From a virus: a stretch of 38,503 nt of DNA. The stretch is taken from the IMG/VR virus record IMGVR_UViG_3300044712_000205, positions 1 through 38,503 of that record. One strand, given 5' to 3'. The first letter of the stretch is position 1. Every line of letters starts with the position of its first letter. Of the stretch, positions 1 to 38,503 are shown piece after piece. The translations under genes were made by a program, and so were the position numbers. The notes beneath the pieces were generated by a model. The model was not told where the DNA came from. It ran no database searches and saw only the letters and a program-made list of their open reading frames with translations.

Positions 1-128
1 CGCTCACCGTCTCCGGCCAACAGGGCGGCTACTGCTGGGGCCTCGGCAACTCGACGCTCACCGTCTCCGGCCAACAGGGCGGCGACTGCAGGGGCTACGA
101 CAACTCGACGCTCACCGTCAAGGAATAA
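1..128 (+). CDS. 18-residue repeat phage protein, C-terminal part (continues from 37854)
   Basis: This is the 3' end of the gene that starts at 37854 and runs off the right end. The open frame enters at base 3 and reads two 18-residue repeats (TLTVSGQQGGYCWGLGNS, then the DCRGYDNS form) before ending TLTVKE-stop at 126-128. Bases 1 to about 119 match 38248-38366, so the window was cut inside the tandem array. Joining base 38503 directly to base 1 would shift the frame, so some repeat sequence is lost or collapsed at the junction and the true copy number is unknown. The next gene starts three bases after the stop. Confidence 0.85.
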   Translation, partial: LTVSGQQGGYCWGLGNSTLTVSGQQGGDCRGYDNSTLTVKE

Positions 129-1096: not shown

Positions 1097-1962
1097 TGAC
1101 CAATCGATTTGCACCAGGAATTCATTTTGGCGTATCGAATGCGGACTACCACGCATCAGCGGGAATCAGCAAGAGCGGACTCGACTGCCTGAACAAGTCT
1201 CCGGCTCATTACTTTGGACGCTATCTCGATCCTAATTTCCCGGCTGATGACGACAAGCAAACCATAGATCAGCAGAACGGAGAACTTGCCCACTGCGCGA
1301 TTCTTGAACCGGACGACTTTGATAAAAGATTCATTGTCGGTCCTTCTGTTTCCAGAAACACAAAAGCATGGAAGGAGTTTGCAGAGGACGCCGCATCGAA
1401 TGGTAAGTCAGCAATTAAGCAGGAACAGTACGAAACGGCATGGGCTCAGGCTAACAGCGTGCGGAGATTGCCCGACATTGCTAGCGCTCTTGCTGTCGGA
1501 AATGCGGAGTCTTCGGCGTTCTGGATTGATGAAGAAACCGGGATGCTATGTAAGTGCCGCCCCGACTTCGCGCATGACTGCGGCGATTCTGGCGTGATCC
1601 TGATCGACGTTAAGACCTGTGGAAACGCTAGCCTCCGCGAGTTCTCGATAATGCTCGCAAAGCATAGATACCACGTTCAGGACGCCTTCTACCGAGACGG
1701 ATATTCGATTGCCAGCGGGAGAAATGTCCTCGCATTTATTTTCGCCGCCGTCGAGATGGAATACCCATACGCGGCTAGCGCAATCATGCTCGATGAGGAC
1801 AGCGTCGAGCAGGGACGGCGCGACTACCGGAGAAACCTTGACTTGTATTCTAAGTGCGTTTCTTCCGGAACATGGCCCGGATATGACGGCACCGTACAGC
1901 TTGCCCGCCTTCCTGGTTGGGCTTTCGACAATGACGAAGAATTGGAGATTGGCTATGTCTGA
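1096..1962 (+). CDS. RecE-like exonuclease VIII, PD-(D/E)XK family
   Basis: A 288-residue protein resembling the C-terminal nuclease half of RecE/exodeoxyribonuclease VIII found in phages. Visible signatures are the N-terminal motif FGVSNADYHASAGISKSGLD (11-30), a probable active-site Glu in AESS (138), RPD (155-157) and ILIDVKTC with D171 and K173, matching E...PD...(D/E)xK. It should resect linear duplex DNA 5'-3' to leave 3' single strands for annealing. It sits directly before a conserved uncharacterised protein and SSB, as in phage recombination modules. A longer frame opens at 991, but the TGATG overlap at 1094-1098 fixes the start. Confidence 0.85.
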   Translation: MTNRFAPGIHFGVSNADYHASAGISKSGLDCLNKSPAHYFGRYLDPNFPADDDKQTIDQQNGELAHCAILEPDDFDKRFIVGPSVSRNTKAWKEFAEDAASNGKSAIKQEQYETAWAQANSVRRLPDIASALAVGNAESSAFWIDEETGMLCKCRPDFAHDCGDSGVILIDVKTCGNASLREFSIMLAKHRYHVQDAFYRDGYSIASGRNVLAFIFAAVEMEYPYAASAIMLDEDSVEQGRRDYRRNLDLYSKCVSSGTWPGYDGTVQLARLPGWAFDNDEELEIGYV

Positions 1963-4203: not shown

Positions 4204-4965
4204 ATGACCGACAGCACCCGCAAGGAAATCGAGAACGAGCCGGGAAAGTGTCCGAAATGCGGATTTCAAACAGGAGCATTCCTTATGCCGCATCACACCT
4301 GCGTAGGGAAGCCGGACTTCTCTGAACTCATGGCAATTAGCCCTGTTGGACTTTTCATTGAAGGCGACCGTGGCTGGTATGAAACCGAATGCAGCAACGG
4401 CGATCCACTCTACTCAGCCGACACGGTAGCCGCACTCACCGAACGGCGCGAGAAGGCGGAGCGGGAGAGGGATGAGGCTAATGATAGGTGGATGAATTCC
4501 GTCCACGTCATTCAGCCTCAATACGTCGAGTGCATTGCTGCGGAGCAGAAGAAGGTCAAAGACCTCACCGACCGCCTAGCCGCCTCGCAGTTGCAGAACG
4601 AGAAGATGCGGCAGAAGTTCTCCCTGATCGAAGTCGCCACGCTGAACAGCGGGCCGGATGAAGTGTATCGGTGGGCCGTCGAATCCCTCGCCCTCCCGTC
4701 CGACCTCTCAGCCCTCAACGCCATGCGTGCGGAGTGGGAGAAGCGGGCGTCTGAATGGGGGAGTGCCTATGCCAACGTCTGCTGCGACAAGGCGGAAGCG
4801 TTGGGACAAGTCTCCACCCTCACGACCGCTTTGCAGGAGGCGCGTGAAGGACTTGAGTACGCCGCTTCTGCGCTTTTCCATAACGGCAACATCGCCGCTC
4901 AAGAGATAGTCCTCAAAGGCATGTTCCGCATCGACGCCGTGCTGACGAAGAAGGAGGCGACATGA
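4204..4965 (+). CDS. zinc-ribbon plus coiled-coil hypothetical protein, 253 aa
   Basis: The N-terminal residues 14-32 carry CPKCGF and HHTC, a probable zinc ribbon. Then comes a long heptad-rich region (ERREKAERERDEANDRW and onward) predicted as coiled coil. A GTG at 4162 would add 14 residues but lacks a clear ribosome binding site; ATG 4204 after GGTGGG is preferred. The stop overlaps the next start. Similar coiled-coil proteins are common and uncharacterised in phage early operons. Confidence 0.65.
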   Translation: MTDSTRKEIENEPGKCPKCGFQTGAFLMPHHTCVGKPDFSELMAISPVGLFIEGDRGWYETECSNGDPLYSADTVAALTERREKAERERDEANDRWMNSVHVIQPQYVECIAAEQKKVKDLTDRLAASQLQNEKMRQKFSLIEVATLNSGPDEVYRWAVESLALPSDLSALNAMRAEWEKRASEWGSAYANVCCDKAEALGQVSTLTTALQEAREGLEYAASALFHNGNIAAQEIVLKGMFRIDAVLTKKEAT

Positions 4966-5393
4966 TGGACAACGCAACCAAAGAGGAAATCATCAATCGC
5001 TTGCACAAGTCGGCGGGCATCTGCATGACCTGTAAGAGGAACAATTGCGGGCACGGCGGCAGCACGGACCTACCTAACACGCTGCCCACTGACGACGTTC
5101 TTCGAGCAATCAATCTGGACGAGTACTTCTTCAAGGAGGACACGCCGGACGCAAACAAGGAACGCATCGCCGCGCTCGAAGCCGAATGTGCCGCCCTGCG
5201 CGAGTTCAAGGTGGATGGGGAGCGGTATCGCATGAAGCGCCGTATCGACATGGAGGCTAAGGGCGCGGAGCATGAGGACCGCTGGAATAAGGGCTACGAC
5301 GAGGCGGTTGATTACTGCATCAAGCACGGAACGCCAACGAAACAACGCGCATCAATCGCGGCACGCGGGGCGGTGAAGAAGGAGGGGGAGTAA
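4962..5393 (+). CDS. hypothetical protein with CxxC and HG-C motifs, 143 aa
   Basis: Starts ATGATG, overlapping the previous stop. The N-terminus carries CMTCKRNNCGHG (residues 21-32), a possible small metal site, followed by a charged helical stretch (residues 65-105). It is modular in the same way as its neighbours at 4204 and 5394, which also mix a short metal motif with helices. Function unknown. Confidence 0.65.
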   Translation: MMDNATKEEIINRLHKSAGICMTCKRNNCGHGGSTDLPNTLPTDDVLRAINLDEYFFKEDTPDANKERIAALEAECAALREFKVDGERYRMKRRIDMEAKGAEHEDRWNKGYDEAVDYCIKHGTPTKQRASIAARGAVKKEGE

Positions 5394-5636
5394 ATGGACT
5401 GGCAAAAGCACCTTGATGAAGTAGCGCACTACGAACGCATGATCGCCAGCCTACAGGAACAACTCGCCGCCGCCGAGGCGACGATAGGGGCGATGCGGGA
5501 GAAGCTGTCAAAGGTCGTCGTCAAGAGTCAATTGAACGACGGAGTTCTTCCGTTCGACATAGAGCAGGAACTAGCCGTGCTGCTGGAAGCCACCCACACC
5601 ACTGCCGACGAGATCGAGAAGGGAGCGCAGCCGTGA
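5394..5636 (+). CDS. small coiled-coil protein, 80 aa
   Basis: Begins directly after the previous stop, with the ribosome binding site (GGAGGGGGAG) inside the upstream gene. Residues 10-45 form a heptad-rich helix (ERMIASLQEQLAAAEATIG). Its stop overlaps the next GTG. Family unknown. Confidence 0.6.
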   Translation: MDWQKHLDEVAHYERMIASLQEQLAAAEATIGAMREKLSKVVVKSQLNDGVLPFDIEQELAVLLEATHTTADEIEKGAQP

Positions 5637-5812
5637 CGGAGAGAACAACCTATTGCGAGAAGCATGCTCCCGATGGGGCTTTCAAGATGGCCGCTAATGC
5701 GTGGCCGTTCTGCAACTGCGCTGTGTGTGGCTTCCCGTCGAAGTTCTACACGATTACGACTGATGGAGTTGCGCCAGAGGTAGATACGCTGACCATGGAC
5801 CTATTCGCATGA
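5633..5812 (+). CDS. small cysteine-rich protein, 59 aa
   Basis: GTG start overlapping the previous TGA, and stop overlapping the next ATG (ATGA at 5809-5812). Carries CEKHAP near residue 7 and CNCAVCGF near residue 29, so a metal-binding knuckle is likely. Overlaps on both sides support translation. Function unknown. Confidence 0.55.
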   Translation: MTERTTYCEKHAPDGAFKMAANAWPFCNCAVCGFPSKFYTITTDGVAPEVDTLTMDLFA

Positions 5813-6033: not shown

Positions 6034-6218
6034 TTAGCCTGAAAAAGTGGGCGGAACGGTTCGACCCGAAGCCCCATCCCAACACCCTCCGAAACTGGAC
6101 GCGTGACGGTAAGATCATCCCCCCCCCGGTGAAGATCGGGCGGGCGTACTATGCTCAGGAAAAGGCACGCCACATAGACGAGTTGCTGAATGGCCCCCCG
6201 CTCACGCTTACCCCGTAA
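6030..6218 (+). CDS. xis: excisionase (recombination directionality factor)
   Basis: A 62-residue protein with the lambda Xis-type winged-helix pattern: SLKKWAERF, then NTLRNWTRDGKIIPPPVKIG (18-37), then AYYAQEKARHID. Xis proteins bend attachment-site DNA and switch the integrase from integration to excision. GTG start inside the upstream gene's stop; the 3' end overlaps the integrase start by 29 bases, the usual xis-int coupling. No other function fits as well. Confidence 0.85.
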   Translation: MISLKKWAERFDPKPHPNTLRNWTRDGKIIPPPVKIGRAYYAQEKARHIDELLNGPPLTLTP

Positions 6219-7254
6219 CAAGGGACTCCCGCCCAATCTATACCAGAACGAAGATGGGTATTTCCGCTATCGTAACCCATCCACCGGGCAATGGTTTGGG
6301 CTTGGCAGGAACAAGGCGATTGCAGTCACACAAGCGATACAGGCTAACCTGCATATCCAGGGGGAAGCGGTAACGCTACTGGACAGGATTACAGGTAAGC
6401 ACCAAAGAACCGTTAATGATTGGTGCGACGAGTACGAACGGAAGAAAGGGGAAAACGCGAGGATTAAGTATCTTCGCAAAGGACTTGGGGAGTACATCTT
6501 AGAGAAGCTGGAACCGCTACAGGTTGGGGATTGGCTCAAAACATGGGATAACAAGTTGCGTATGCGGCAAGCGATGCTAGGCATTGCCAAAACCGTATTT
6601 TCCGAAGCAATAGGAGCGGGATGGATCAAGAGCAGCCCCGCAGAATTCCTAACTACAGAGCAACCAAAGACGCGACGGGATCGGCTTACCCTAGACGAAT
6701 TCAAAGCCATCTACGCCGCCGCAGATAGGCCATTACAACGCGCAATGGAGTTAGCAATAATGACTTGCGCAAGACGAGAGAACATTCTAATGGCCAAATT
6801 CTCGGATATAGAAGCCGGACACTTGCACATCATCCACATCAAGGCGAAACCCGGCGAAGACCCGGTAAAGGCTCGCTATCCGCTCTCCATGTGCCTTCCT
6901 GAACTAGGATGGACGCTTGGAGACGTAATCGGAAGGTGTAGGGATAATGTAGTCAGCAAGTTCCTAATCCATCACTCCACAACCGCGGGAATGGCAAAAG
7001 CTGGATCCCACTGGCGGGACAAGTCGATAGAACAGATGTTCCGTAACGCAAGAGAAAAAGCGGGCATCACCCAGCAGGCAGGGAAGACCCCGCAGACCTT
7101 CCATGAGATTAAATCCCTCGCTAAGAGCCTATGGGAGCATCACGGCTATAACACCATGCTGATGTGCGGGCATAAGACTGAAAAAATGTCTGCTCTATAC
7201 CGTGATAGACGGGGTAAAGAATGGCAGACGGTGGGAGTATCAAATGGGGCGTAA
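6190..7254 (+). CDS. int: lambda-type tyrosine integrase
   Basis: A 354-residue phage integrase. The N-terminal arm-type DNA-binding domain covers about residues 1-60 (GYFRYRNPSTGQWFGLGRN at 23-41), then a core-binding domain, then the catalytic domain. Catalytic residues by lambda alignment: R195 (TCARREN), a beta-hairpin lysine near 218-220, H305, H328 (CGHKTEKM) and nucleophile Y337 (ALYRDRRG). The second conserved arginine is lysine here (FHEIKSL, K308). It integrates the phage at a host attachment site; xis precedes it. It is not an integron IntI: no IntI-type insert is seen and the arm domain is lambda-like. attP was not located. Confidence 0.92.
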   Translation: MAPRSRLPRNKGLPPNLYQNEDGYFRYRNPSTGQWFGLGRNKAIAVTQAIQANLHIQGEAVTLLDRITGKHQRTVNDWCDEYERKKGENARIKYLRKGLGEYILEKLEPLQVGDWLKTWDNKLRMRQAMLGIAKTVFSEAIGAGWIKSSPAEFLTTEQPKTRRDRLTLDEFKAIYAAADRPLQRAMELAIMTCARRENILMAKFSDIEAGHLHIIHIKAKPGEDPVKARYPLSMCLPELGWTLGDVIGRCRDNVVSKFLIHHSTTAGMAKAGSHWRDKSIEQMFRNAREKAGITQQAGKTPQTFHEIKSLAKSLWEHHGYNTMLMCGHKTEKMSALYRDRRGKEWQTVGVSNGA

Positions 7255-7597
7255 AAGAAAAGATGATTCGATACCAGTTAATACCTATGTTGCAAATGGG
7301 TATTTCAGGTGGAGAAATCCTCATAATGACAAATGGCAAGGTTTAGGAAGAAACCGAGAATCAGCAATAGCCTATGCCGAGGAATTGAATGCTGCGCTAA
7401 GAATCTCAAAAACAGAGGAGCGCGTGTTAAAACGACGTGGCATCAACGTACCGGATATGGACGACAGGGGGCTTCTTTCTCACGGTGGAATAAGAATCCA
7501 AGAGCAATGCGATGGCTTTTATTCGGTAGATATGAGCAAAGAGGAGGCTATTCGTGCGCTCAGGGAGGCCATCGAATGGATAGAGAGCTGTGATTGA
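7244..7597 (+). CDS. stand-alone integrase arm-binding-domain paralogue
   Basis: A 117-residue protein starting inside the last codons of int (ATG 7244). Residues 19-37 (GYFRWRNPHNDKWQGLGRN) match the integrase arm domain at int 23-41 almost residue for residue. After it comes an unrelated C-terminal part (about 60-117) with no catalytic motif. It may bind the same arm sites and modulate integration or excision (inference). The first 60 bases of the gene are about 38% GC, well below the neighbours, which suggests separate acquisition. Its stop codon overlaps the -35 box of the 7594 promoter. Confidence 0.8.
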   Translation: MGRKRKDDSIPVNTYVANGYFRWRNPHNDKWQGLGRNRESAIAYAEELNAALRISKTEERVLKRRGINVPDMDDRGLLSHGGIRIQEQCDGFYSVDMSKEEAIRALREAIEWIESCD

Positions 7598-7622
7598 CAA
7601 AAACTATCGACAAGCGTATAAG
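7594..7622 (+). promoter_or_regulatory. sigma70-type promoter, near consensus
   Basis: TTGACA at 7594-7599, a 17-base spacer, TATAAG at 7617-7622. Transcription should start near 7629, almost on the ATG at 7631, so the first mRNA would be leaderless or nearly so. It opens the packaging and structural genes. Confidence 0.8.
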
Positions 7623-7630
7623 TGATAGTC

Positions 7631-7936
7631 ATGTGGACTCGTGAGACATTCGAGCGCCTAGAGAAAGAAGCCGACAATCCAAAAGTAAGGAAGTCGGCTG
7701 CATCCCTTATTGAAAACACGCTCAACGGAAGCACGTTCCGCGTAAAGCGCCACGTCTATGTCCCGTTGAAGCGAGGCCGCAACGAACTCGGCCAGTTCAA
7801 CGGGAAGAACAGGAAGGCGTACCACTACGCCGTCAAAGACAAAACGCAGCCGGTTACTTATCGCCAATTAATGGCCGAGAACATCGAAGCGAATAACGCC
7901 CTACTGGCTAGACTTCGTGCGAATCATGGCGGCTAG
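7631..7936 (+). CDS. hypothetical protein upstream of terminase, 101 aa
   Basis: ATG about 9 bases after the -10 box; a GTG at 7622 lies inside the -10 and is unlikely. The product is basic (residues 35-70 rich in Lys and Arg: KRHVYVPLKRGRNE) and helical. Not recognised. As first gene of the late transcript it could be a DNA-binding packaging accessory or a regulator, but no helix-turn-helix is evident. It overlaps the next gene by 11 bases. Confidence 0.65.
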   Translation: MWTRETFERLEKEADNPKVRKSAASLIENTLNGSTFRVKRHVYVPLKRGRNELGQFNGKNRKAYHYAVKDKTQPVTYRQLMAENIEANNALLARLRANHGG

Positions 7937-8177
7937 GCTACGAAAAACCCACCAAGATGAAGTAAGGACGAAGATACAAGCCAGTCAGCTTATCAACGTC
8001 CTACAAAATCATGCACTTGCGAAAGACGATAAGGAAATTTCGTATAGCCGTATGAAGGCAATCGAAATCCTTCTCCGCAAGAGCGTTCCAGACCTTAGCG
8101 CGGTTCAGTTGGGCGGCGACAAAGGCAACCCCATCCGCCAATCCATAGAGGTCCGCATCATTGACCCTGCAAGTTAG
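7926..8177 (+). CDS. terminase small-subunit-like protein, 83 aa
   Basis: Begins MAARLRKTHQDEVRTKIQAS, then ISYSRMKAIEILLRKSVPDLS. This is the pattern of short proteins placed directly before the large terminase in many podoviruses and siphoviruses, where the small subunit recognises phage DNA. ATG 7926 is chosen; GTG 7917 is an alternative. It overlaps the TTG start of the large subunit by 17 bases. Assignment rests on position plus a weak family pattern. Confidence 0.65.
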   Translation: MAARLRKTHQDEVRTKIQASQLINVLQNHALAKDDKEISYSRMKAIEILLRKSVPDLSAVQLGGDKGNPIRQSIEVRIIDPAS

Positions 8178-9486
8178 CGTCCCTCGCAAGCTGAAGCCGC
8201 TGCTCTACCCGGCGCGGTACAAGGGCGCATATGGTGGGCGCGGCGGGGCAAAGTCTCACTTCTTCGCAGAGCAGCTAATCATCCGCTGCTACCAGAGGCA
8301 GACCCGAGCGGTTTGCATCCGGGAAGTACAAAACTCTATCAAGGACTCGGTTAGGCAATTGCTGATCGACAAGATTAGCAAATGTGGACTAGAGCCATTC
8401 TTTGAGGTACTGGATAGCGAGATACGCGGCCCGGATGGGTCAATCATCATATTTAAGGGCATGCAGTCCTACAACGCGGACAACATCAAATCCTTGGAGG
8501 CATACGATATTGCGTGGGTGGAGGAAGCCCAGACCTTAAGCCAGCACTCGTTAGACCTATTGCGCCCGACGATCCGTAAGCCAGGGTCGGAGATTTGGTT
8601 TAGCTGGAATCCGAGGTACAAGACTGACGCGGTAGATAAGTTCCTCCGAAAAGACCCTCCGCCTGATTCAATCTGCGTGATGGTGAATTGGTCGGACAAT
8701 CCATGGTTTCCAGAGGTGTTGAGGCGGGAAATGGAGTTTGACTTCGCCATAGACCCCGACAAGGCAGAACATATCTGGAATGGGGCATACGGGGCTGGGC
8801 AAGGGGCAATTCTGGCCCGCTGGGTCAATAAAGCAGAGCGTGATGGGCGTATCGGAGAGGTGGAGTACGACCCAGACGGCGCATCTATCGAGATATCGAG
8901 CGACTTGGGATTTAGGGATACCGCCTCATGGTGGTACTGGCAGCGATGCCTGGGCGGCTATCGACTACTGAAGTATGACGGGGATAGTGGTCTAGACGCC
9001 CCAGAGTGGATCGAGCGCATACAGGCCGCGCTAGGCGGATGGAAGTTGGACAAGATATGGCTACCCCACGACGCTAGGGCCAAGACATTCCAAAGCCGGC
9101 ATAGCACGATTGAGCAGTTTGTTGAGGCTTTTGGGGCGGATAAGGTTTCCATCGTCCCGCAATCCAAGAAGTCCGACCAGATCAACGCGGCGCGGGAAGT
9201 GATAGACCGTTGCCAATTCAACCGCAAGGAATGCGAGGCCGGTTTAGATGGGTTGATGGCTTGGGAGTACGAATATAACGACGATCTTGCTGTATTCAGC
9301 CGAGAGCCCAAGCACGATTGGGCGTCGCACCCATCCGACGCCTTTGCCTATGGTTGCCAGGTTATGCGGGATGTCACGGTGGAGGTCAAAGAGGACAAGC
9401 CAATACGCGGCCTGATGGTCGGATCGAATACGGTTTCGCTTGATGAGATGTGGAAAGAGGTTCGACCGGAGAGCAATAGAATTTAG
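8161..9486 (+). CDS. terL: terminase large subunit
   Basis: A 441-residue packaging motor. The N-terminal ATPase has Walker A GGRGGAKS (25-32) and Walker B with catalytic acid IAWVEEA (117-123). The C-terminal RNase H-like nuclease shows the three acidic positions SSDLGFRD (D248), PHDARAK (D304) and HPSDAFAYG (D393). It cuts concatemeric DNA and pumps it into the prohead through the portal. TTG start inside the small-subunit gene; no better start lies nearby, and the protein is full length. Confidence 0.94.
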   Translation: MTLQVSVPRKLKPLLYPARYKGAYGGRGGAKSHFFAEQLIIRCYQRQTRAVCIREVQNSIKDSVRQLLIDKISKCGLEPFFEVLDSEIRGPDGSIIIFKGMQSYNADNIKSLEAYDIAWVEEAQTLSQHSLDLLRPTIRKPGSEIWFSWNPRYKTDAVDKFLRKDPPPDSICVMVNWSDNPWFPEVLRREMEFDFAIDPDKAEHIWNGAYGAGQGAILARWVNKAERDGRIGEVEYDPDGASIEISSDLGFRDTASWWYWQRCLGGYRLLKYDGDSGLDAPEWIERIQAALGGWKLDKIWLPHDARAKTFQSRHSTIEQFVEAFGADKVSIVPQSKKSDQINAAREVIDRCQFNRKECEAGLDGLMAWEYEYNDDLAVFSREPKHDWASHPSDAFAYGCQVMRDVTVEVKEDKPIRGLMVGSNTVSLDEMWKEVRPESNRI

Positions 9487-9489
9487 CTA

Positions 9490-9518
9490 TTGACAGTAGC
9501 AAATGCGATAGCGATAAT
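9490..9518 (+). promoter_or_regulatory. sigma70-type promoter before the head genes
   Basis: TTGACA at 9490-9495, a 17-base spacer, GATAAT at 9513-9518. It lies in the 81-base gap after the terminase gene, and the first downstream gene has GGGAGG before ATG 9568. It would boost structural-gene expression relative to terminase. Confidence 0.7.
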
Positions 9519-9567
9519 CACTGAGAGTTCTAACCTTACATGCCGGGATGGCGTTGGGAGGTAGCAC

Positions 9568-27864: not shown

Positions 27865-28119
27865 ATGCCTCAACTTCTGCAACTTCTGGTCGGAATCTTT
27901 ACGGGTAAGGCTGGCGAACAAATTGGAGGGGCGGTTTCTTCTGCGGCACAGATTGCCGCCTTCGTTGCCGCCGTTACACCAATCGCTCTATGGCTTGGAA
28001 ACAACAAAGACGCCGTATTCATCCAGCTTACCTACGGCGATCTGGCATTTTGGGGAACCATGATTGCCGTAATCGTGTTTATCACGGTTCGCCTTGTACA
28101 TCGCGCTCCAGCCCCTTGA
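27865..28119 (+). CDS. holin-like membrane protein, 84 aa
   Basis: Two hydrophobic segments (about 20-43 and 60-78: LAFWGTMIAVIVFITVRLV) with a positively charged C-terminus (HRAPAP). This is a class II holin-like layout, directly after the endolysin candidate with AAAGGAG before its ATG. Pore formation is inferred from topology. Confidence 0.6.
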   Translation: MPQLLQLLVGIFTGKAGEQIGGAVSSAAQIAAFVAAVTPIALWLGNNKDAVFIQLTYGDLAFWGTMIAVIVFITVRLVHRAPAP

Positions 28120-29174: not shown

Positions 29175-29696
29175 TCATTCCCCCATCCTTTCCCGCTCCC
29201 TGAGCATGGCGTCTGCCATGTCGTATGCCTCTTGTGCGATCATCACGACCTCTGCCGCGCTGTGGCCTGCGTCGCTGTCAAACAATGCGGCCATCGCCTG
29301 CGCCGCGAAGCGCGGCTCGATCTCGATCTCAACCCTCGGGTTCTTCCGGTCGATGCCGTGATAGACATGGCGCTCCCGAACCTTTCGGTCGTTCAGATAG
29401 ACGCCACGCCGCACGCAGGCGCGCTGCTTTCCCTTGCCCTGGAACTTCGCCTGGAGCACGTCGAGCACCACGGATTCGTCCAGGTCTGGCCGCTCGCTGG
29501 CGTAGAAGATGCGGATCGTCGCCTTCAGTTCGCCCTCCAGCATCACGCGCGCCGACGCCGGGATCTGCAACTGCGCCATCACCTCGAAGTCCCGCGCCTT
29601 CTCCGACTTGATGAACGCCGGACGATTGCGAAGCGTCACCAACTTGCGGCTGTTCGCCTTCGACGCCGGCTCGCCAAGGATCGTCAGGGAGATCAT
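29175..29696 (-). CDS. rusA: RusA-like Holliday junction resolvase
   Basis: A 173-residue RusA-type endonuclease. Key acids are visible: RPDLDES (D71, D73) and VYLNDRKVRE (D103), plus the N-terminal GEPASKANSR and the final VEIEIE strand. RusA cuts four-way junctions as a dimer and frees branched phage DNA before packaging. The C-terminus extends about 45 residues beyond the core. ATG 29696 follows GGAGGA; an upstream ATG at 29717 lacks this spacing. It lies just downstream of the cassette array. Confidence 0.88.
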   Translation of the reverse strand: MISLTILGEPASKANSRKLVTLRNRPAFIKSEKARDFEVMAQLQIPASARVMLEGELKATIRIFYASERPDLDESVVLDVLQAKFQGKGKQRACVRRGVYLNDRKVRERHVYHGIDRKNPRVEIEIEPRFAAQAMAALFDSDAGHSAAEVVMIAQEAYDMADAMLRERERMGE

Positions 29697-29837
29697 GCGC
29701 GGTCCTCCGTGGAACAATTCCGTGAAACATAGCGAACTGAACCAGACTCAACCATGATGCTTTTCACTCCGTTTTATTCATCCACAGGCTTGGTGCGACT
29801 AGCTTCCAGTGCTGTTTGTCGGAAAACATTCCGTCAT
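29697..29837. other. gap at the left edge of the cassette array
   Basis: The 141 bases between rusA and the first cassette gene hold no solid gene; one 21-residue minus-strand frame (29764-29829) may be a remnant. I see no attC or obvious attI here, and no GTTCGAC to match the R'' core of the first attC, so the left cassette boundary is degenerate or lost. Confidence 0.5.
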
Positions 29838-30104
29838 TTAGGTGTCCGACTTGTAGTTCGGCGTCACTTGCGCTATCGGCCCCCAGACGATGAAATCCTG
29901 CTTGTCTTCGTCCCACAGCATGAGGTCGGCCTTGCAGCAGTGGCTGACCCAAATCTTTTCCGTGAGGCTTTCGAGCACGTTTCCCTTGTCATCCTCGGTA
30001 CGGCTGTACTCAAAATCCGTTTGCACCGGGCGGCACTCGCCGCAGCCGTTCTCGCAGCACCATTTCTGCCGGTCGCTGATTGCTGGTAGTTGTTCCGTTG
30101 TCAT
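29838..30104 (-). CDS. hypothetical protein of the array's left end, 88 aa
   Basis: Cysteine clusters CCENGCGEC (residues 16-24) and HCCKAD (about 56) suggest a metal site; the rest resembles small phage proteins (FIVWGPIAQVTPNY). The start follows AGGAGATAGCGAC; a longer frame from 30149 would run into attC site 1. It is the attI-proximal gene by array polarity and has attC only on its right. Confidence 0.7.
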   Translation of the reverse strand: MTTEQLPAISDRQKWCCENGCGECRPVQTDFEYSRTEDDKGNVLESLTEKIWVSHCCKADLMLWDEDKQDFIVWGPIAQVTPNYKSDT

Positions 30105-30135: not shown

Positions 30136-30191
30136 GTCGAACTATTCATTCCACCGGACCGCTGCGCGGCCGGTGAATTCAGGCGTTGGCC
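30136..30191 (+). other. attC site 1
   Basis: R'' GTCGAAC, spacer TATTC, L'' ATTcCACC (extra c), hairpin GGaCCGC-TGC-GCGGCC, L' GGTGAAT, spacer TCAGGC, R' GTTGGCC. L'' and L' pair perfectly once the extra base is left out. Carries the stop codon of the gene starting at 30559. Confidence 0.92.
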
Positions 30192-30559
30192 GTCTTCTCA
30201 CGAGCGCGCAGTCGCCTGTCAATCTCGGCGGCGAGCAGTGCGCCAGCCTTCACCAGCAAGTCCAGCCGCTCTTCCTCGGTGTAGGTCGCTGGGTCGGGCG
30301 GCATGTTGCCGGGGTTCTCCTTGCGCTCGCCGTAGCTGTAGCGCTTGTCCCATCCGTCGCTCCACGATTCCGGCCACGGGTCGCTAAATCCAAACCCGAG
30401 GGCAAAACGATCATGCTGGTACAGCAGCACCGGGGTTGCGTAGCACACGGCGGCGAGGGCAAGCGAGCAGTCGTCGTGCTCGTCGTCATGTTCCGGCGTC
30501 CAGCCTTCCTGCTCGATCTGGCGCTTCCGTTCCGCTGCAATCAGTTCTGCTCCGGTCAT
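30179..30559 (-). CDS. cassette gene, phage-type hypothetical protein, 126 aa
   Basis: Begins MTGAELIAAERKRQIEQEGW, then TPEHDDEHDDCSLALAAV. This is a small family widespread in phages, probably cytoplasmic, function unknown. Ribosome binding site AAGGAG. The last codons (AAC GCC TGA) lie in the R' core and spacer of attC site 1, across the cassette boundary, so the final residues and stop come from the neighbouring attC. Confidence 0.8.
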   Translation of the reverse strand: MTGAELIAAERKRQIEQEGWTPEHDDEHDDCSLALAAVCYATPVLLYQHDRFALGFGFSDPWPESWSDGWDKRYSYGERKENPGNMPPDPATYTEEERLDLLVKAGALLAAEIDRRLRAREKTANA

Positions 30560-30590
30560 TCCATTTCTCCTTTCTCCGTGGCCGACAGCC

Positions 30591-30646
30591 GGCCAACTAT
30601 TCATTCCAGCGGACGCCTTCGGCGCCGCTGAATTCAGGCGTTAGAG
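30591..30646 (+). other. attC site 2
   Basis: R'' GGCCAAC (reverse complement of site 1 R'), spacer TATTC, L'' ATTcCAGC, hairpin GGaCGCC-TTC-GGCGCC, L' GCTGAAT, spacer TCAGGC, R' GTTAGAG. Spacers identical to site 1; the stems differ but pair fully, showing compensatory change. Confidence 0.94.
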
Positions 30647-30825
30647 GGCAGTTTCTTGATCTCCACTTTCACAGCCCTGAAGCCATCCTTGCGAAGCACC
30701 TCCCATTTCGGGAACAGCATCCAGTCGCACCAACCAAGGCAGTTGTTTATAGCCTCCGCTCGCGTCCGACCGCAGGCAGAAGGGAGCAAAGCGCCAGTCG
30801 GTCCCTCAATAATCCATGCCTTCAT
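30634..30825 (-). CDS. cassette gene, small hypothetical protein, 63 aa
   Basis: MKAWIIEGPTGALLPSACG with a WCDWM segment: a small basic alpha/beta protein, not recognised. The start follows GGGGAG and lies 11 bases from the R'' core of attC site 3. It ends PSNA-stop with TCT AAC GCC TGA inside attC site 2, so its tail crosses the cassette boundary. Confidence 0.7.
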   Translation of the reverse strand: MKAWIIEGPTGALLPSACGRTRAEAINNCLGWCDWMLFPKWEVLRKDGFRAVKVEIKKLPSNA

Positions 30826-30836
30826 TTACCGCTCCC

Positions 30837-30906
30837 CTCTAACCCGTCGTTCGAGCGCGACCCTTCGGCCGCAAGCGGCCTCGGGCCGCTCAACTCTGCG
30901 TTATGC
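30837..30906 (+). other. attC site 3
   Basis: R'' CTCTAAC (reverse complement of site 2 R'), spacer CCGTC, L'' GTTcGAGC, a longer hairpin with inner GGCCGC-AA-GCGGCC, L' GCTCAAC, spacer TCTGC, R' GTTATGC. L'' and L' pair perfectly apart from the extrahelical c. Confidence 0.92.
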
Positions 30907-30937
30907 CCCGCTGCCGCAGAGACAGCTGGGCGGTTGG

Positions 30938-31072
30938 TTAGATTCCGGGTTTGCAATCTGCCCATCCTTCGTCGGTCACGCCGTCACCATCCGGGATCGC
31001 CCAGGACAGATCAACGTCGCCGCTGCCGGCACCGATGTTGCTGCTACCGCCGCCAATCCATTTCTTCCGCAT
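30938..31072 (-). CDS. cassette gene, very small protein, 44 aa
   Basis: Strong ribosome binding site (GGAAGGAGGTGAG) before ATG 31072; ends at TAA 30938. The product MRKKWIGGGSSNIGAGSGDV... has a glycine/serine-rich start and an acidic tail (WAIPDGDGVTDEGWADCKPG). Family unknown. The excellent ribosome binding site and its position alone between attC sites 3 and 4 support it. Confidence 0.65.
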   Translation of the reverse strand: MRKKWIGGGSSNIGAGSGDVDLSWAIPDGDGVTDEGWADCKPGI

Positions 31073-31101
31073 TGCTACTCACCTCCTTCCCGCCCCGCAG
31101 G

Positions 31102-31188
31102 GCATAACATTCCGGTCAACCTTCGTTCGCCTTCGGCTCACCGGACTGTCGCGCAAGCGCGCCAGCCGGGTTACCTACACCGTTGGCA
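31102..31188 (+). other. attC site 4
   Basis: R'' GCATAAC (reverse complement of site 3 R'), spacer ATTCC, L'' GGTcAACC, a long variable hairpin (47 bases, inner GCGC-AA-GCGC), L' GGTTACC, spacer TACACC, R' GTTGGCA. Here the gene starting at 31475 reads right through R', L' and most of the loop before stopping. Confidence 0.85.
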
Positions 31189-31475
31189 GGCACGATCTCT
31201 ACCAGCCGCCCGTCTGTGAACTTGGCCCTGTATTCGTGCCACCCGGTAGCCTTGTCATGCGTGTAGAAGTTGAGCCACCCGTGAAAGTCTTCGTCCTCCG
31301 GTGCGGTCAATTCCTCTTCGCCCCAGCAACCAGATCGCGTCCTCATCAAGCGCCCATCCGTGCCGACCTCATACTGTGACAAGTCACAGCCCATGTCTTT
31401 CGTCTGGAACCATTCGCTTGTCGTGTAGCCGTCCGGCATCGGCTGGCTGAACCGTATTTCGTCAAACATTCCCAT
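31116..31475 (-). CDS. cassette gene, phage-type hypothetical protein, 119 aa
   Basis: MGMFDEIRFSQPMPDGYTTS, EWFQTKDMG, a small protein family common in phages and prophages. Ribosome binding site GGAGGAAGC. The last 25 or so residues (ANGVGNPAGALARQSGEPKA) are translation of attC site 4, because its spacer has no stop in this frame. Function unknown. Confidence 0.78.
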   Translation of the reverse strand: MGMFDEIRFSQPMPDGYTTSEWFQTKDMGCDLSQYEVGTDGRLMRTRSGCWGEEELTAPEDEDFHGWLNFYTHDKATGWHEYRAKFTDGRLVEIVPANGVGNPAGALARQSGEPKANEG

Positions 31476-31489
31476 TGCTTCCTCCTGCC

Positions 31490-31558
31490 TGCCAACTCTG
31501 TGGTGCAGGGGACGCTTCGCCGCTGCGCGGCTCGCGTCCCTGACCTTGAAAGTTAGCC
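31490..31558 (+). other. attC site 5
   Basis: R'' TGCCAAC (reverse complement of site 4 R'), spacer TCTGT, L'' GGTgCAGG, hairpin with inner GCCGC-TGC-GCGGC, L' CCTGACC, spacer TTGAAA, R' GTTAGCC. The extrahelical base is g instead of c. Confidence 0.92.
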
Positions 31559-31562
31559 CGCA

Positions 31563-31808
31563 TCATCCGAACATATGGCGCGTAAATGCCTCAACAGACT
31601 TACTCACCAGCGTGTCCTCGTTGGCTTTGTAGTGGTCTGCCAGCTTCCGCGCCAGTTCGGAGTCGTCCATGCCGAGCGCAGCGGCGATCCCCTGCCGAAC
31701 CTGGCTCGCGTCGGACCGAGAAAGTTTCGTCCCGCCTTCACCGTAGCCGGCCAGTCCGCGCACGAAATCAGCCGCGTAGGTGTAGGGGTAGCGAGTGTCG
31801 TTTTCCAT
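31563..31808 (-). CDS. cassette gene, small hypothetical protein, 81 aa
   Basis: MENDTRYPYTYAADFVRGLA, then DASQVRQGIAAALGMDDSELA: helical and acidic, phage-like, unrecognised. ATG 31808 fits the AAAGG spacing; TTG 31814 would add two residues. The stop lies five bases beyond R' of attC site 5, so this gene is contained within its cassette. Confidence 0.72.
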   Translation of the reverse strand: MENDTRYPYTYAADFVRGLAGYGEGGTKLSRSDASQVRQGIAAALGMDDSELARKLADHYKANEDTLVSKSVEAFTRHMFG

Positions 31809-31824
31809 TTTCAACCTTTCTGCG

Positions 31825-31882
31825 GGCTAACCCCGCATTGCAGCGGACGCTCTGCGAGCGCCGCTGAATTTAGACGTTATGC
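31825..31882 (+). other. attC site 6
   Basis: R'' GGCTAAC (reverse complement of site 5 R'), spacer CCCGC, L'' ATTgCAGC, hairpin GGaCGCTC-TGC-GAGCGCC, L' GCTGAAT, spacer TTAGAC, R' GTTATGC. Fully paired stem. Confidence 0.93.
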
Positions 31883-32109
31883 GGCTGTGTCGAGTAGTCG
31901 CTTGTGTCCTGTTCCAAGAATGAGCGAACCCCGTTCCATTCACTTACTTGCTCTTTTGTCATCAGTTCCACGCCAGCAGCCACAATGGCTTTCCCGGTCG
32001 CTACTTGGTTTCTCAACCGAAGAATCTCTTTTCTAGCCGTCATCATGGCCGCGAACGCTCCGCCATAAACAGTGCTTGCTCTCGCCTCAAGTTCATCCGT
32101 AATGTCCAT
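31870..32109 (-). CDS. cassette gene, small hypothetical protein, 79 aa
   Basis: MDITDELEARASTVYGGAFA then helices; an upstream ATG (32133) lies in the attC site 7 R'' region and lacks a good ribosome binding site. It ends QPHNV-stop, with AAC GTC TAA lying inside attC site 6, across the cassette boundary. Function unknown. Confidence 0.7.
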   Translation of the reverse strand: MDITDELEARASTVYGGAFAAMMTARKEILRLRNQVATGKAIVAAGVELMTKEQVSEWNGVRSFLEQDTSDYSTQPHNV

Positions 32110-32129
32110 TTCGCCCTCTTCAATCATCC

Positions 32130-32187
32130 GCATAACACGTCGTCCGAATGGACGGCCTACCGGCCGCCCTTCAACTCTGCGTTAGAG
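32130..32187 (+). other. attC site 7
   Basis: R'' GCATAAC (reverse complement of site 6 R'), hairpin with CGGCC / GGCCG and one bulged A, spacer TCTGC, R' GTTAGAG. The L''/L' pairing is imperfect (two mismatches), so it may be a weaker site. Confidence 0.82.
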
Positions 32188-32378
32188 CGCAAGGCATCGC
32201 GTAGCTCTACGGCATTCATCGCCAGCGCTTCCGCGTCTTTTCGACCCTGGCGTTCTCCGGCCTTGTATGCGGCTTGTAAAACTTCGTGCAGGTCTTTTGC
32301 GCCAACTCTGCCGTATAAGGCGCGCTGAACTATGTCGCAAAATCTTTTGCTTCGCTTCTTCCAGTCAGCGAACGCCAT
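32157..32378 (-). CDS. cassette gene, small hypothetical protein, 73 aa
   Basis: MAFADWKKRSKRFCDIVQRA, a basic helical protein. ATG 32378 overlaps the end of the partner gene. It ends RSNAELKGGR-stop: the R' core gives S-N and translation continues through the TCTGC spacer to a stop in the attC site 7 loop. One of two genes in this cassette. Confidence 0.68.
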   Translation of the reverse strand: MAFADWKKRSKRFCDIVQRALYGRVGAKDLHEVLQAAYKAGERQGRKDAEALAMNAVELRDALRSNAELKGGR

Positions 32379-32553
32379 ACGGCCTCCCGTTCTGCAATTC
32401 AAACTTCCGCAGCGTGTCGCTACAGTGGCGCTCGCCGTTTGCAAGCGTCACCATGTCACCGCGACCGCACTCACAGCGCTCTAACCCGTCAGTTGACACG
32501 GACGCTGCGCCATCAGGCTCCGTTCTGGCGTCAGCGAATAATTCAGCGTTCAT
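32365..32553 (-). CDS. cassette gene, small cysteine protein, 62 aa
   Basis: MNAELFADARTEPDGAASVS, then CECGRG and HCSDTL: a probable small metal-binding protein. It overlaps the next gene by 14 bases. Its ATG lies inside the long variable region of attC site 8, so the first 23 or so codons are part of that site's folded region. A start further downstream cannot be excluded. Confidence 0.55.
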   Translation of the reverse strand: MNAELFADARTEPDGAASVSTDGLERCECGRGDMVTLANGERHCSDTLRKFELQNGRPYGVR

Positions 32554-32603
32554 CACTCTTGCTATCTCCCGTAGGCGCAGCGCCGGTTACGTCAGCGTTA
32601 TGC
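32479..32603 (+). other. attC site 8 (long)
   Basis: A 125-base site. R'' CTCTAAC (reverse complement of site 7 R'), R' GTTATGC; the stem CGGaCGCTGCGCC pairs with GGCGCAGCGCCG with one bulged A. The L boxes are weak. The roughly 60-base variable region includes the start of the gene at 32553. Confidence 0.78.
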
Positions 32604-32622: not shown

Positions 32623-32937
32623 TCATGCTGCCATCTGCATTTCTTCATTCATGACGCCAGAATCTTCATCGATCTGCCGCTTCGCCAATCGGTATCCGTG
32701 ACTCTCCTTGTCGTACAGTCCGGCCTCTGCCAGAGCAACGATTTCATAAGCCCACCGCTTCATCCCGGTTTGCTTTACCTCTGCCGTTACGCGCTTTTTG
32801 GCTTCCCACTGCATTTCTCCGATTCGGTAGTTGTCGTTGCTGATCTTCAACAGTTCCGCACGAAGCGAAGCCCGTTCCTGCTCTCCAATAATCGCGGAGT
32901 CGTCTCCAGCCGCAGCAGATTTTTTAACGAGAGCCAT
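32623..32937 (-). CDS. hypothetical early protein, 104 aa
   Basis: MALVKKSAAAGDDSAIIGEQ then a helical charged region (ERASLRAELLKISNDNYRIG). It starts inside the replication gene's end (14-base overlap) and stops 20 bases before attC site 8, so it is the phage-backbone gene at the array edge. It might be a replication accessory by position; not recognised. Confidence 0.65.
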   Translation of the reverse strand: MALVKKSAAAGDDSAIIGEQERASLRAELLKISNDNYRIGEMQWEAKKRVTAEVKQTGMKRWAYEIVALAEAGLYDKESHGYRLAKRQIDEDSGVMNEEMQMAA

Positions 32938-33664
32938 TGGCGTATTTACCTTCGATAACCTTCGCAAAGTTCGTCGGACGCATCAGCCATTCGAGGTCAG
33001 CAATAAACGGCTTCCCCCCGTTCCTACCGTCGCACTGTCCAGTCAGGAACGATGACGGACGGACGTAATTGGCGAAGAATGCGCGGAATGTTTCCATCCC
33101 CTCATCCCTGGTCTTAAAGTCTCCTGATTCGTAAAGCTGCCTCCAGCGAGAACTGATGTACCCGTCTCGGGTCTTGTTCCGTACCTGCATCCGTGGAAGC
33201 GTAGGAAGGGATTCGTGGTACAGGTCGATAATTTCCGAAATGGGGCAGACAGGGCATAACCGCTTGGCGGTTTTGCCTACCTCCGTAGGAGGTAATTCTG
33301 TCTCTCCCTCTGCCTCTGTCTCTCCCTCTCTCTCTCCCTCTGGGGTAGCGGGTTGCTTGCACGCCGCTAGCACATCGCTATCAAAAACCAGAAAACCTCC
33401 ATCGATTAAATGAGTTAGGCCAGATATGACCTCATCGACAGACCAGCGAAGCCGCCAAGCGATTGACGCAGGGTCGCCGTCAATAGAACCGTCCTTTGTT
33501 TCGCTTGCAAGCAGCCATAACATCGGCGCTAGCGCCTTGCTAGCAATCGGCAAGCATTGGAAATCACGATCATCAAGCAATGAGCGCTGAAGCTTTATCC
33601 AAGGCGGGCAACGGTCTTTGTAATGCTGAAACTCGGCCCACTTCTTGATGACGTAGCGAGCCAT
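32924..33664 (-). CDS. phage replication protein (O/DnaD-like organiser)
   Basis: A 246-residue protein. The N-terminal part (AEFQHYKDRCPPWIKLQRSL, then RLRWSVDEVISGLTHLIDGGFLV, about 70-95) is a winged-helix of the kind in phage replisome organisers. A low-complexity acidic linker follows (EGEREGETEAEGETE, about 109-123), then a C-terminal region (NKTRDGYISSRWRQLYESG). It would open the origin and recruit the host helicase; no phage helicase gene is present. Coupled upstream by ATGA. Confidence 0.72.
   Translation of the reverse strand: MARYVIKKWAEFQHYKDRCPPWIKLQRSLLDDRDFQCLPIASKALAPMLWLLASETKDGSIDGDPASIAWRLRWSVDEVISGLTHLIDGGFLVFDSDVLAACKQPATPEGEREGETEAEGETELPPTEVGKTAKRLCPVCPISEIIDLYHESLPTLPRMQVRNKTRDGYISSRWRQLYESGDFKTRDEGMETFRAFFANYVRPSSFLTGQCDGRNGGKPFIADLEWLMRPTNFAKVIEGKYANGSR
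33278..33341. repeat. origin-like hairpin and repeats within the replication gene
   Basis: A perfect 7-base hairpin (TACCTCC-GTA-GGAGGTA, 33278-33294) is followed by three copies of TCTCTCCCTCT at 33301, 33319 and 33331. They encode the acidic linker. Lambda keeps its origin repeats inside the O gene; this is a comparable candidate, by analogy only. Confidence 0.5.
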
Positions 33665-37661: not shown

Positions 37662-37737
37662 GCGGACGTAGCTCAGATGGTAGAGCGCGATCCTTCCAAG
37701 TTCGATGTCGAGAGTTCGATTCTCTCCGTCCGCTCCA
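37662..37737 (+). tRNA. tRNA-Gly (anticodon UCC)
   Basis: Complete cloverleaf. Acceptor GCGGACG pairs with CGTCCGC, D stem GCTC/GAGC, anticodon loop CTTCCAA giving UCC, T arm GAGAG-TTCGATT-CTCTC, discriminator T, and an encoded CCA at 37735-37737. The anticodon stem has one T-T mismatch. It reads GGA glycine codons, which look common in the phage genes. It lies in the early plus-strand leader, not next to int. An integrated fragment of a host tRNA is possible, but the full cloverleaf favours a functional gene. Confidence 0.9.
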
Positions 37738-37853: not shown

Positions 37854-38503
37854 ATGTGCCAACGCCATTCGTTCCTGCTAACCCGCGCCGGAAAGGTATG
37901 CGATGGGTTCGGCGTTACCGACAGCCATACCGAAATCCGCGAGTTGCACGGAATGCACGCGAATAACGATTCCGTTAATGCCTACGAATGGCAACCGCCA
38001 GAAGGATGGCCTAATGCGGACTGGAATCTTGGCCTGACGAAAGACTTGGAAGTTTTTGAAACCAAGTCTAGCCACGAAGAAGCAATGGAGCGCCATGTTC
38101 GCACGCTCTATCCGACCATGGCGGAATGGGAAGCCGGCGACCGATCACGCCTGACCGCTTCTGTTCTTAGAAATGCCGGATGGACCGAGTTGCTTCCTGA
38201 TTCGACTCACGACGATTTGAGAGGAAATAACTTCGTTGTCGATGGAGCGCTCACCGTCTCCGGCCAACAGGGCGGCTACTGCTGGGGCCTCGGCAACTCG
38301 ACGCTCACCGTCTCCGGCCAACAGGGCGGCGACTGCAGGGGCTACGACAACTCGACGCTCACCGTCTCCGGCCAACAGGGCGGCTACTGCAGGGGCTACG
38401 ACAACTCGACGCTCACCGTCTCCGGCCAACAGGGCGGCGACTGCAGGGGCTACGACAACTCGACGCTCACCGTCTCCGGCCAACAGGGCGGCTACTGCAG
38501 GGG
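37854..38503 (+). CDS. 18-residue repeat phage protein, N-terminal part (continues at 1)
   Basis: ATG 37854 after AGGGGAG. Residues 1-131 form a globular domain (MCQRHSFLLTRAGKVCDGFG..., SHTEIRELHG, AYEWQPPEGWPN, MERHVRTLYPTMAEWEAG) of a type found in phage proteins with repeated C-termini. From about residue 132 come nearly identical 54-base repeats starting at 38248, 38302, 38356, 38410 and 38464, encoding TLTVSGQQGG-Y/D-CRGYDNS with Tyr and Asp alternating. A stacked beta-solenoid is likely. The frame runs off the end and finishes at 128. Function unknown; possibly lysogenic conversion or protein binding. Confidence 0.85.
   Translation, partial: MCQRHSFLLTRAGKVCDGFGVTDSHTEIRELHGMHANNDSVNAYEWQPPEGWPNADWNLGLTKDLEVFETKSSHEEAMERHVRTLYPTMAEWEAGDRSRLTASVLRNAGWTELLPDSTHDDLRGNNFVVDGALTVSGQQGGYCWGLGNSTLTVSGQQGGDCRGYDNSTLTVSGQQGGYCRGYDNSTLTVSGQQGGDCRGYDNSTLTVSGQQGGYCR
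38248..38503 (+). repeat. 54-base tandem repeats spanning the contig ends
   Basis: Four full copies and a partial fifth here, two more copies at 1-108. Copies differ at the TAC/GAC codon, in strict alternation (a 108-base higher-order unit), and by the TGCTGGGGCCTCGG variant in the first copy. The near identity suggests recent expansion or gene conversion and explains why the contig ends here. Confidence 0.9.

Follow-up and report, generated by a model that had tools for sequence, protein, structure and literature searches.

The window analysed here is the whole stretch of 38,503 nucleotides in IMG/VR virus record IMGVR_UViG_3300044712_000205, and it carries an array of eight integron attC sites interleaved with small genes in a phage early operon. 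Because Rfam returned only tRNA in the window and no attC-like family, we built our own covariance model from 23 attC sites, all from integron loci of bacterial genome contigs, and ran the window unfiltered. Exactly eight matches were obtained in 38.5 kb, all on the plus strand and all within 30136-32603 (2.5 kb), scoring 17.5-53.5 bits, with the ninth best at 9.7 bits. A sequence-only reading of the window had proposed eight attC sites of 56-125 bases with the same outer limits, and the independent model recovered the same eight; its claim of six sites with a perfect stem and one extrahelical base also held, the sites at 32130 and 32479 having mismatches. The sites are as follows.

30136-30191, plus strand: attC 1, the first site in the attC direction, with an extrahelical C in L''; 48.3 bits (E = 7.7e-10), and found by the structural scan with a looser core pattern
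30591-30646, plus strand: attC 2; 53.0 bits, structural scan
30837-30906, plus strand: attC 3; 41.2 bits, structural scan
31102-31188, plus strand: attC 4, with a long loop and, on inspection, a perfect 7-pair stem and one extrahelical C; 20.4 bits
31490-31558, plus strand: attC 5; 22.6 bits, structural scan
31825-31882, plus strand: attC 6; 53.5 bits, structural scan
32130-32187, plus strand: attC 7, with an imperfect stem (mismatches); 30.5 bits
32479-32603, plus strand: attC 8, 125 nucleotides, with an imperfect stem (mismatches) and arms resembling the OXA-2 attC of R46; 17.5 bits

The structural scan, which looked for core boxes, spacers and a stem with one extrahelical base in L'', gave five matches in the window against a mean of 0.15 (maximum 2) over 100 shuffled windows. 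Four of the five were array sites, and the looser core pattern added a fifth array site, 30136-30191. The other match, at 27877-27970 on the minus strand, had no covariance-model support and was set aside as a chance match. When folded, the bottom strands of the window sites were more stable than shuffled sequences (z from -1.6 to -3.3). The earlier reading had named a covariance scan and bottom-strand folding as checks on its sites, and both came out on the side of attC. With at least two co-oriented attC sites within a few kilobases and no integron integrase, the array is a cluster of attC sites lacking integron integrase (CALIN).

Hairpins between cotranscribed genes, with stops and starts close to them, could also be RNA elements of the early operon that serve processing, insulation or translational coupling and merely look like attC, and in several sites both strands do fold about equally well. 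An RNA hairpin, however, has no need of RYYYAAC and GTTRRRY cores, fixed spacers or a single extrahelical base on one side only, and in other phages, as described below, such sites go with a dedicated IntI clade and mark exact gain and loss of cassettes. We regard this explanation as hardly credible.

The genes between the sites all lie on the minus strand, and several have their stop codon within the L'-R' part of an attC site.

29838-30104, minus strand: gene left of attC 1 (longest frame to 30149), possibly a cassette at the missing attI end; weak phrog_15625 match (E = 3.1e-6)
30179-30559, minus strand: cassette gene 1, 126 amino acids (longest frame to 30604), stop in the L'-R' spacer of attC 1; PHROG matches to E = 3.6e-20
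30634-30825, minus strand: cassette gene 2, 63 amino acids, stop within attC 2; codon model
30938-31072, minus strand: cassette gene 3, 44 amino acids, with aaggaggtg upstream; codon model
31116-31475, minus strand: cassette gene 4, 119 amino acids, ending within attC 4; codon model, and phrog_1615 (E = 1.4e-4)
31563-31808, minus strand: cassette gene 5, 81 amino acids; codon model
31870-32127, minus strand: cassette gene 6, 85 amino acids, ending within attC 6; codon model
32157-32378, minus strand: cassette gene 7, 73 amino acids, ending within attC 7; codon model
32365-32556, minus strand: possible second gene of cassette 7, 63 amino acids, starting in the attC 8 loop; open reading frame call

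For cassette gene 1, the codon model scored 22.7 against -3.7 on the other strand. The start of the 63-amino-acid frame at 32365-32556 within the attC 8 loop is of a kind that recurs in phage arrays. No informative family match was obtained for the window's own cassette genes in profile searches.

The orientation of an attC site was defined by its extrahelical base and its 5/6 spacers. On the class 1 control R46, this rule places the sites of the oxa-2 and aadA1 cassettes in the direction of their genes, and on the chromosomal loci all 125 of 125 matches fell on the strand expected from intI. Nearly all attC matches in viral contigs were likewise in the normal orientation relative to intI, so the orientation signal in viruses is not an artefact of strand calling. 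In the window, the extrahelical base in L'' and the 5/5-6 spacers are valid only when the sites are read on the plus strand, opposite to the genes. All eight sites are thus on the plus strand and all cassette genes on the minus strand, and seven of the seven complete cassettes are antisense to their attC.

In order to compare this polarity with that of other arrays, we assembled two viral sets, one from an IntI-alignment scan of IMG/VR viral contigs (270 relatives, of which 80 were kept) and one from a degenerate attC pattern (at least 119 contigs matched), both of which proved rich in attC arrays. The chromosomal set consisted of bacterial genome contigs and includes a few class 1 integrons that are perhaps mobile. 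The coding strand of each cassette between neighbouring attC sites was called by a codon model, which replaced a longest-frame test that was noisy because of GC-rich shadow frames; that test had given sense to antisense ratios of 59:4 in the chromosomal set, 32:48 and 22:87 in the viral sets and 1:4 in the window. With the codon model, chromosomal integrons had 66 sense and 4 antisense cassettes (n = 70; 94% sense), or 25 sense and no antisense when counted by contig. IMG/VR contigs had 18 sense and 245 antisense cassettes (n = 263, among the matches listed), or 5 and 76 by contig. The antisense excess was present in contigs with IntI (13 sense, mostly from L210, and 88 antisense) and in those found by attC pattern (5 sense and 157 antisense among the matches listed). 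Inverted polarity is therefore the rule in the environmental phages sampled and rare in the control bacterial integrons. Packing of the cassettes was alike in phages and chromosomes, with the stop a few bases from the next site and the start about 20 bases past the previous one; only the site was flipped. Genes starting within the loop of the upstream attC made up about a quarter of phage cassettes (61/245) versus 3/70 in chromosomes.

A scan by way of the replication protein covered 80 loci and gave a single further clear attC phage, L041, while the RusA protein of the window as a query found nothing. In L041 the attC site (1208-1322, plus strand, 54.5 bits) is antisense to genes at 957-1277 and 1317-1547 on the minus strand, and one gene start lies inside the attC loop. 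Together with the 46 records bearing antisense arrays, L041 made up the 47 comparison records that were tested for phage hallmarks, and 30 of these carry a phrog_2 terminase, Phage_portal or a GpA-type terminase. Among the 47, 19 encode an integron integrase that passes the NCBI cut-off; the twentieth found was that of L210.

In a tree of 116 IntI proteins, 36 viral IntIs formed one clade (100/100) with no chromosomal members, beside a chromosomal clade that holds Nitrosomonas, Accumulibacter and Glaciimonas (97/77). The remaining viral IntIs fell mostly in a second group with weaker support, and the viral or chromosomal label changed 4 times on the tree versus 39 in shuffles. Contigs L222, L225, L227, L231, L233 and L238 belong to this second group and mostly have no attC detectable by the model, and they may use another type of site. 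Gene order also differed. Up to 4 kb upstream of intI, genes on the strand of intI versus the other strand numbered 287:24 in viral loci and 28:129 in chromosomal loci, which indicates that phage cassettes and intI form a single unit with reading direction toward intI; in bacteria, the cassettes point away from intI. In one genome of the order Burkholderiales (G160, contig 13; L390:1-6240), inverted cassettes share a strand with IntI and an excisionase-like gene. A phage integrase comes next, beyond it lie chromosomal squalene/phytoene synthase and threonine synthase genes, and the segment looks like the end of an integrated prophage. Close relatives of these IntIs were nearly absent from INPHARED phage records, which may explain why the inverted class was missed. 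In Virus Rctr41k (L083), an IntI-like gene at 4680-5678, annotated as xerD and 45% identical to IntI1, accompanies one attC-like site at 8415-8545; this IntI is a distant one, and the phage does not belong to the inverted type.

On this evidence, we consider it very probable that the window represents a temperate phage whose nin-like early operon holds an inverted cassette array of the phage type without an integrase, that is, a phage-type CALIN. Several observations weigh against this reading. The codon model recovered 78% of test windows and rejected 93% of shadows. The Fisher p values for the polarity difference (1e-47 by cassette, 1e-19 by contig) overstate the evidence, since cassettes within a contig and related contigs are not independent. 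A few sense phage arrays exist (TJE1, L210, L220, L263, L300 and L325), although L210, an isolate contig with an IntI outside the main phage clades, is probably a host integron. Seventeen of the 47 comparison records have none of the three hallmark families searched, and the comparison phages are mostly metagenome contigs that may be incomplete. In the window itself, no match to the integron integrase model TIGR02249 was found anywhere in the record, no attI was recognisable left of 30136 on inspection by eye, and no close relative of the phage was found, including none with a different cassette set. With neither intI, a recognised attI nor a close relative at hand, activity of this array is inferred from other phages. 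A phage-clade IntI downstream on the same strand, as met in many comparison phages, is thus missing here, and the window can only be an integrase-less member of the inverted class.

The missing intI and the two degenerate sites would also suit an ordinary CALIN, in which a piece of a host's chromosomal integron was passively acquired and is decaying. The window sites are close to betaproteobacterial ones; for example, a Glaciimonas site (L154; GCCCAACCCATCATTCCAGCGGACCGCC...GCCGCTGAATTCAAACGTTATGC), among the nearest chromosomal sites, is nearly like the phage site at 30591-30646. However, with bacterial cassettes 94% sense and none of 25 bacterial contigs antisense, seven antisense cassettes out of seven are unlikely to come from that pool. 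The window genes moreover fit closely between the sites, in register with them, and are encoded on the same strand as the phage operon, and the same layout occurs in unrelated phages, some with their own intI. Passive acquisition is therefore very unlikely. The sequence-only reading also proposed that the phage may use host integrons to exchange accessory genes. As regards the integrase, this is possible, as the window has no intI and such integrases are frequent in the likely host order, occurring in 143 of the 399 genomes sampled. As regards the cassettes, it is not borne out, as the antisense orientation seen here and in other phages, set against the 66:4 sense ratio of bacteria, suggests that they belong to a phage pool and were not sampled from the cassettes of a host.

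Exchange of cassettes was evident in one group of near-identical phages, L172, L173 and L175, in which a stretch of 4,084 bp that takes in intI is 99.9% identical. Cassettes of 425, 450, 397 and 299 bp in this group match from G|TT to G|TT, and L173 has extra cassettes absent from L175, such as those of 757 bp (7570-8326) and 468 bp (9098-9565). Whole cassettes are thus gained and lost at attC boundaries (R' G|TT) in at least one phage group. The window array could instead be a relic, with real sites and real inverted polarity but with cassettes assembled in an ancestor that had access to intI and now immobile. The absence of intI and of a close relative with a different cassette set fits such a history, as does the divergence of cassette gene 1, whose homologues in L236, L239 and L293, in or adjoining attC-bounded cassettes, are only 40-44% identical. 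On the other side, four window sites exceed 40 bits and so score like chromosomal sites adjoining intI, and IntI is common in the likely host order. We judge immobility unlikely, and the window array would most likely be an integrase-less member of the inverted phage integron class, moved by IntI in trans.

Comparison of 106 phage cassette proteins with PHROG and Pfam identified DNA methyltransferases, Mom-like modification proteins, Lar restriction alleviation proteins and an Acb2/Tad1-like protein, while most had no known function. The Acb2/Tad1-like cyclic-nucleotide sponge is a cassette gene in a phage attC array (L306:3863-4138, minus strand). Judged by family, the methyltransferase, Mom-like, Lar and Acb2/Tad1-like cargo of these related phages is of putative counter-defence types.

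The window encodes a terminase large subunit (TerL) and a portal according to PHROG and profile matches, as well as a lambda-type integrase, a RecE-like nuclease, a single-strand-DNA-binding protein and a repressor. The presence of TerL, portal, integrase, RecE-like nuclease and repressor identifies it as a temperate tailed phage, and its host is probably a member of the Burkholderiales. The early operon runs on the minus strand from a YdaS-like gene (36454) through NinB-like, RusA-like, RecA-dependent-nuclease-like and O-like genes to a second RusA-like gene (29175). As the earlier reading had it, the array lies next to replication and recombination genes: all eight attC sites are within this nin-like operon, between the O-like replication-initiation gene and the second RusA-like gene. 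The flanking genes and the integrase are as follows.

32924-33664, minus strand: replication-initiation (O-like) gene, upstream flank; phrog_26426 (E = 4.3e-31) and phrog_5810 (E = 1.6e-23)
32623-32967, minus strand: backbone gene abutting attC 8, upstream operon neighbour of the array; open reading frame call and PHROG search
29175-29717, minus strand: RusA-like Holliday junction resolvase, downstream flank; phrog_140 (E = 2.1e-8)
6190-7254, plus strand: the phage's own tyrosine integrase, lambda-Int type with an arm-binding domain; PF09003 (E = 1e-17) and PF00589

The integrase at 6190-7254 is of the lambda type and not an integron integrase, and the NCBIfam search gave zero matches to this frame. 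No INPHARED record was matched by 24 kb of the window in a megablast search. A portal search in Burkholderiales identified one prophage relative, on contig 30 of G111 (L388/L389), with a portal 44-48% identical and another protein 62% identical, and no attC was detectable in it. The same 54-bp tandem repeat occurs at both ends of the window (1-119 and 38248-38503), and the record may therefore be a complete circular genome opened inside the repeat. A complete tRNA-Gly (tcc) gene near the right end (37662-37737) could be phage-borne or linked to an attachment site.

The sequence-only reading had supposed that an attC array in a phage genome may be undescribed, but a survey of 10,705 phage genomes (Qi et al. 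2023, PMC9892861) had already turned up 17 CALINs, along with 3 complete integrons and one In0, and IntI1 recombined five of the six phage attC sites tested there. The CALINs of that survey resemble the window in being attC clusters without intI in phage genomes. They differ in that arrays such as TJE1, which the survey calls typical and which we found to be sense, have the bacterial polarity; inverted polarity and a phage IntI clade are not described in the available text of that paper. No report of either was found in the open-access papers searched, with most subscription papers and all preprints outside the search. Phage arrays share with chromosomal and mobile integrons the sequence and structure of attC, its orientation relative to intI, the usual one gene per cassette and the G|TT boundaries. 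The genes of those integrons, however, are sense and diverge from intI, whereas phage genes are antisense and read toward it, and the window differs further in having no intI or recognised attI. With the lambda nin region, the window shares a place in the early operon near the replication gene, NinB- and RusA-like genes and a site for small dispensable accessory genes, but here the accessory genes are separated by attC, so that their exchange need not use homologous recombination.

In the mechanism we propose for the inverted class, IntI supplied by a resident integron of the host or by a co-infecting phage would excise and insert cassettes via folded attC bottom strands, as in any integron, and each insertion would leave the attC sites co-oriented. 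Bacterial cassettes are transcribed from the promoter Pc, which points away from attI/intI, and sense cassettes are therefore expressed. In phages, the transcript would enter the array at its far end and proceed in the direction of intI, so that only genes antisense to attC would be expressed. We infer that polarity follows promoter position, and phages and bacteria would then hold two cassette pools of opposite polarity, the phage cargo being accessory early genes. We lean, with less confidence, toward a distinct, vertically evolving lineage of phage integrons, with phage-only IntI clades, reversed cassettes read toward intI in the early operon and a counter-defence pool apart from the bacterial one, each silent in the other's array, and with the window phage as an integrase-less user.

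Reversed polarity would offer a simple sequence test for telling phage from bacterial cassettes, with the prediction that neither pool can express the genes of the other. Whether cassette polarity is set by promoter position rather than by the chemistry of recombination becomes a testable question. Integrons are regarded as gene-capture devices of bacteria, associated with antibiotic resistance and anti-phage defence. If the reading given here is true, the shuffling of genes by folded single-strand sites would also serve the phage side of the arms race.

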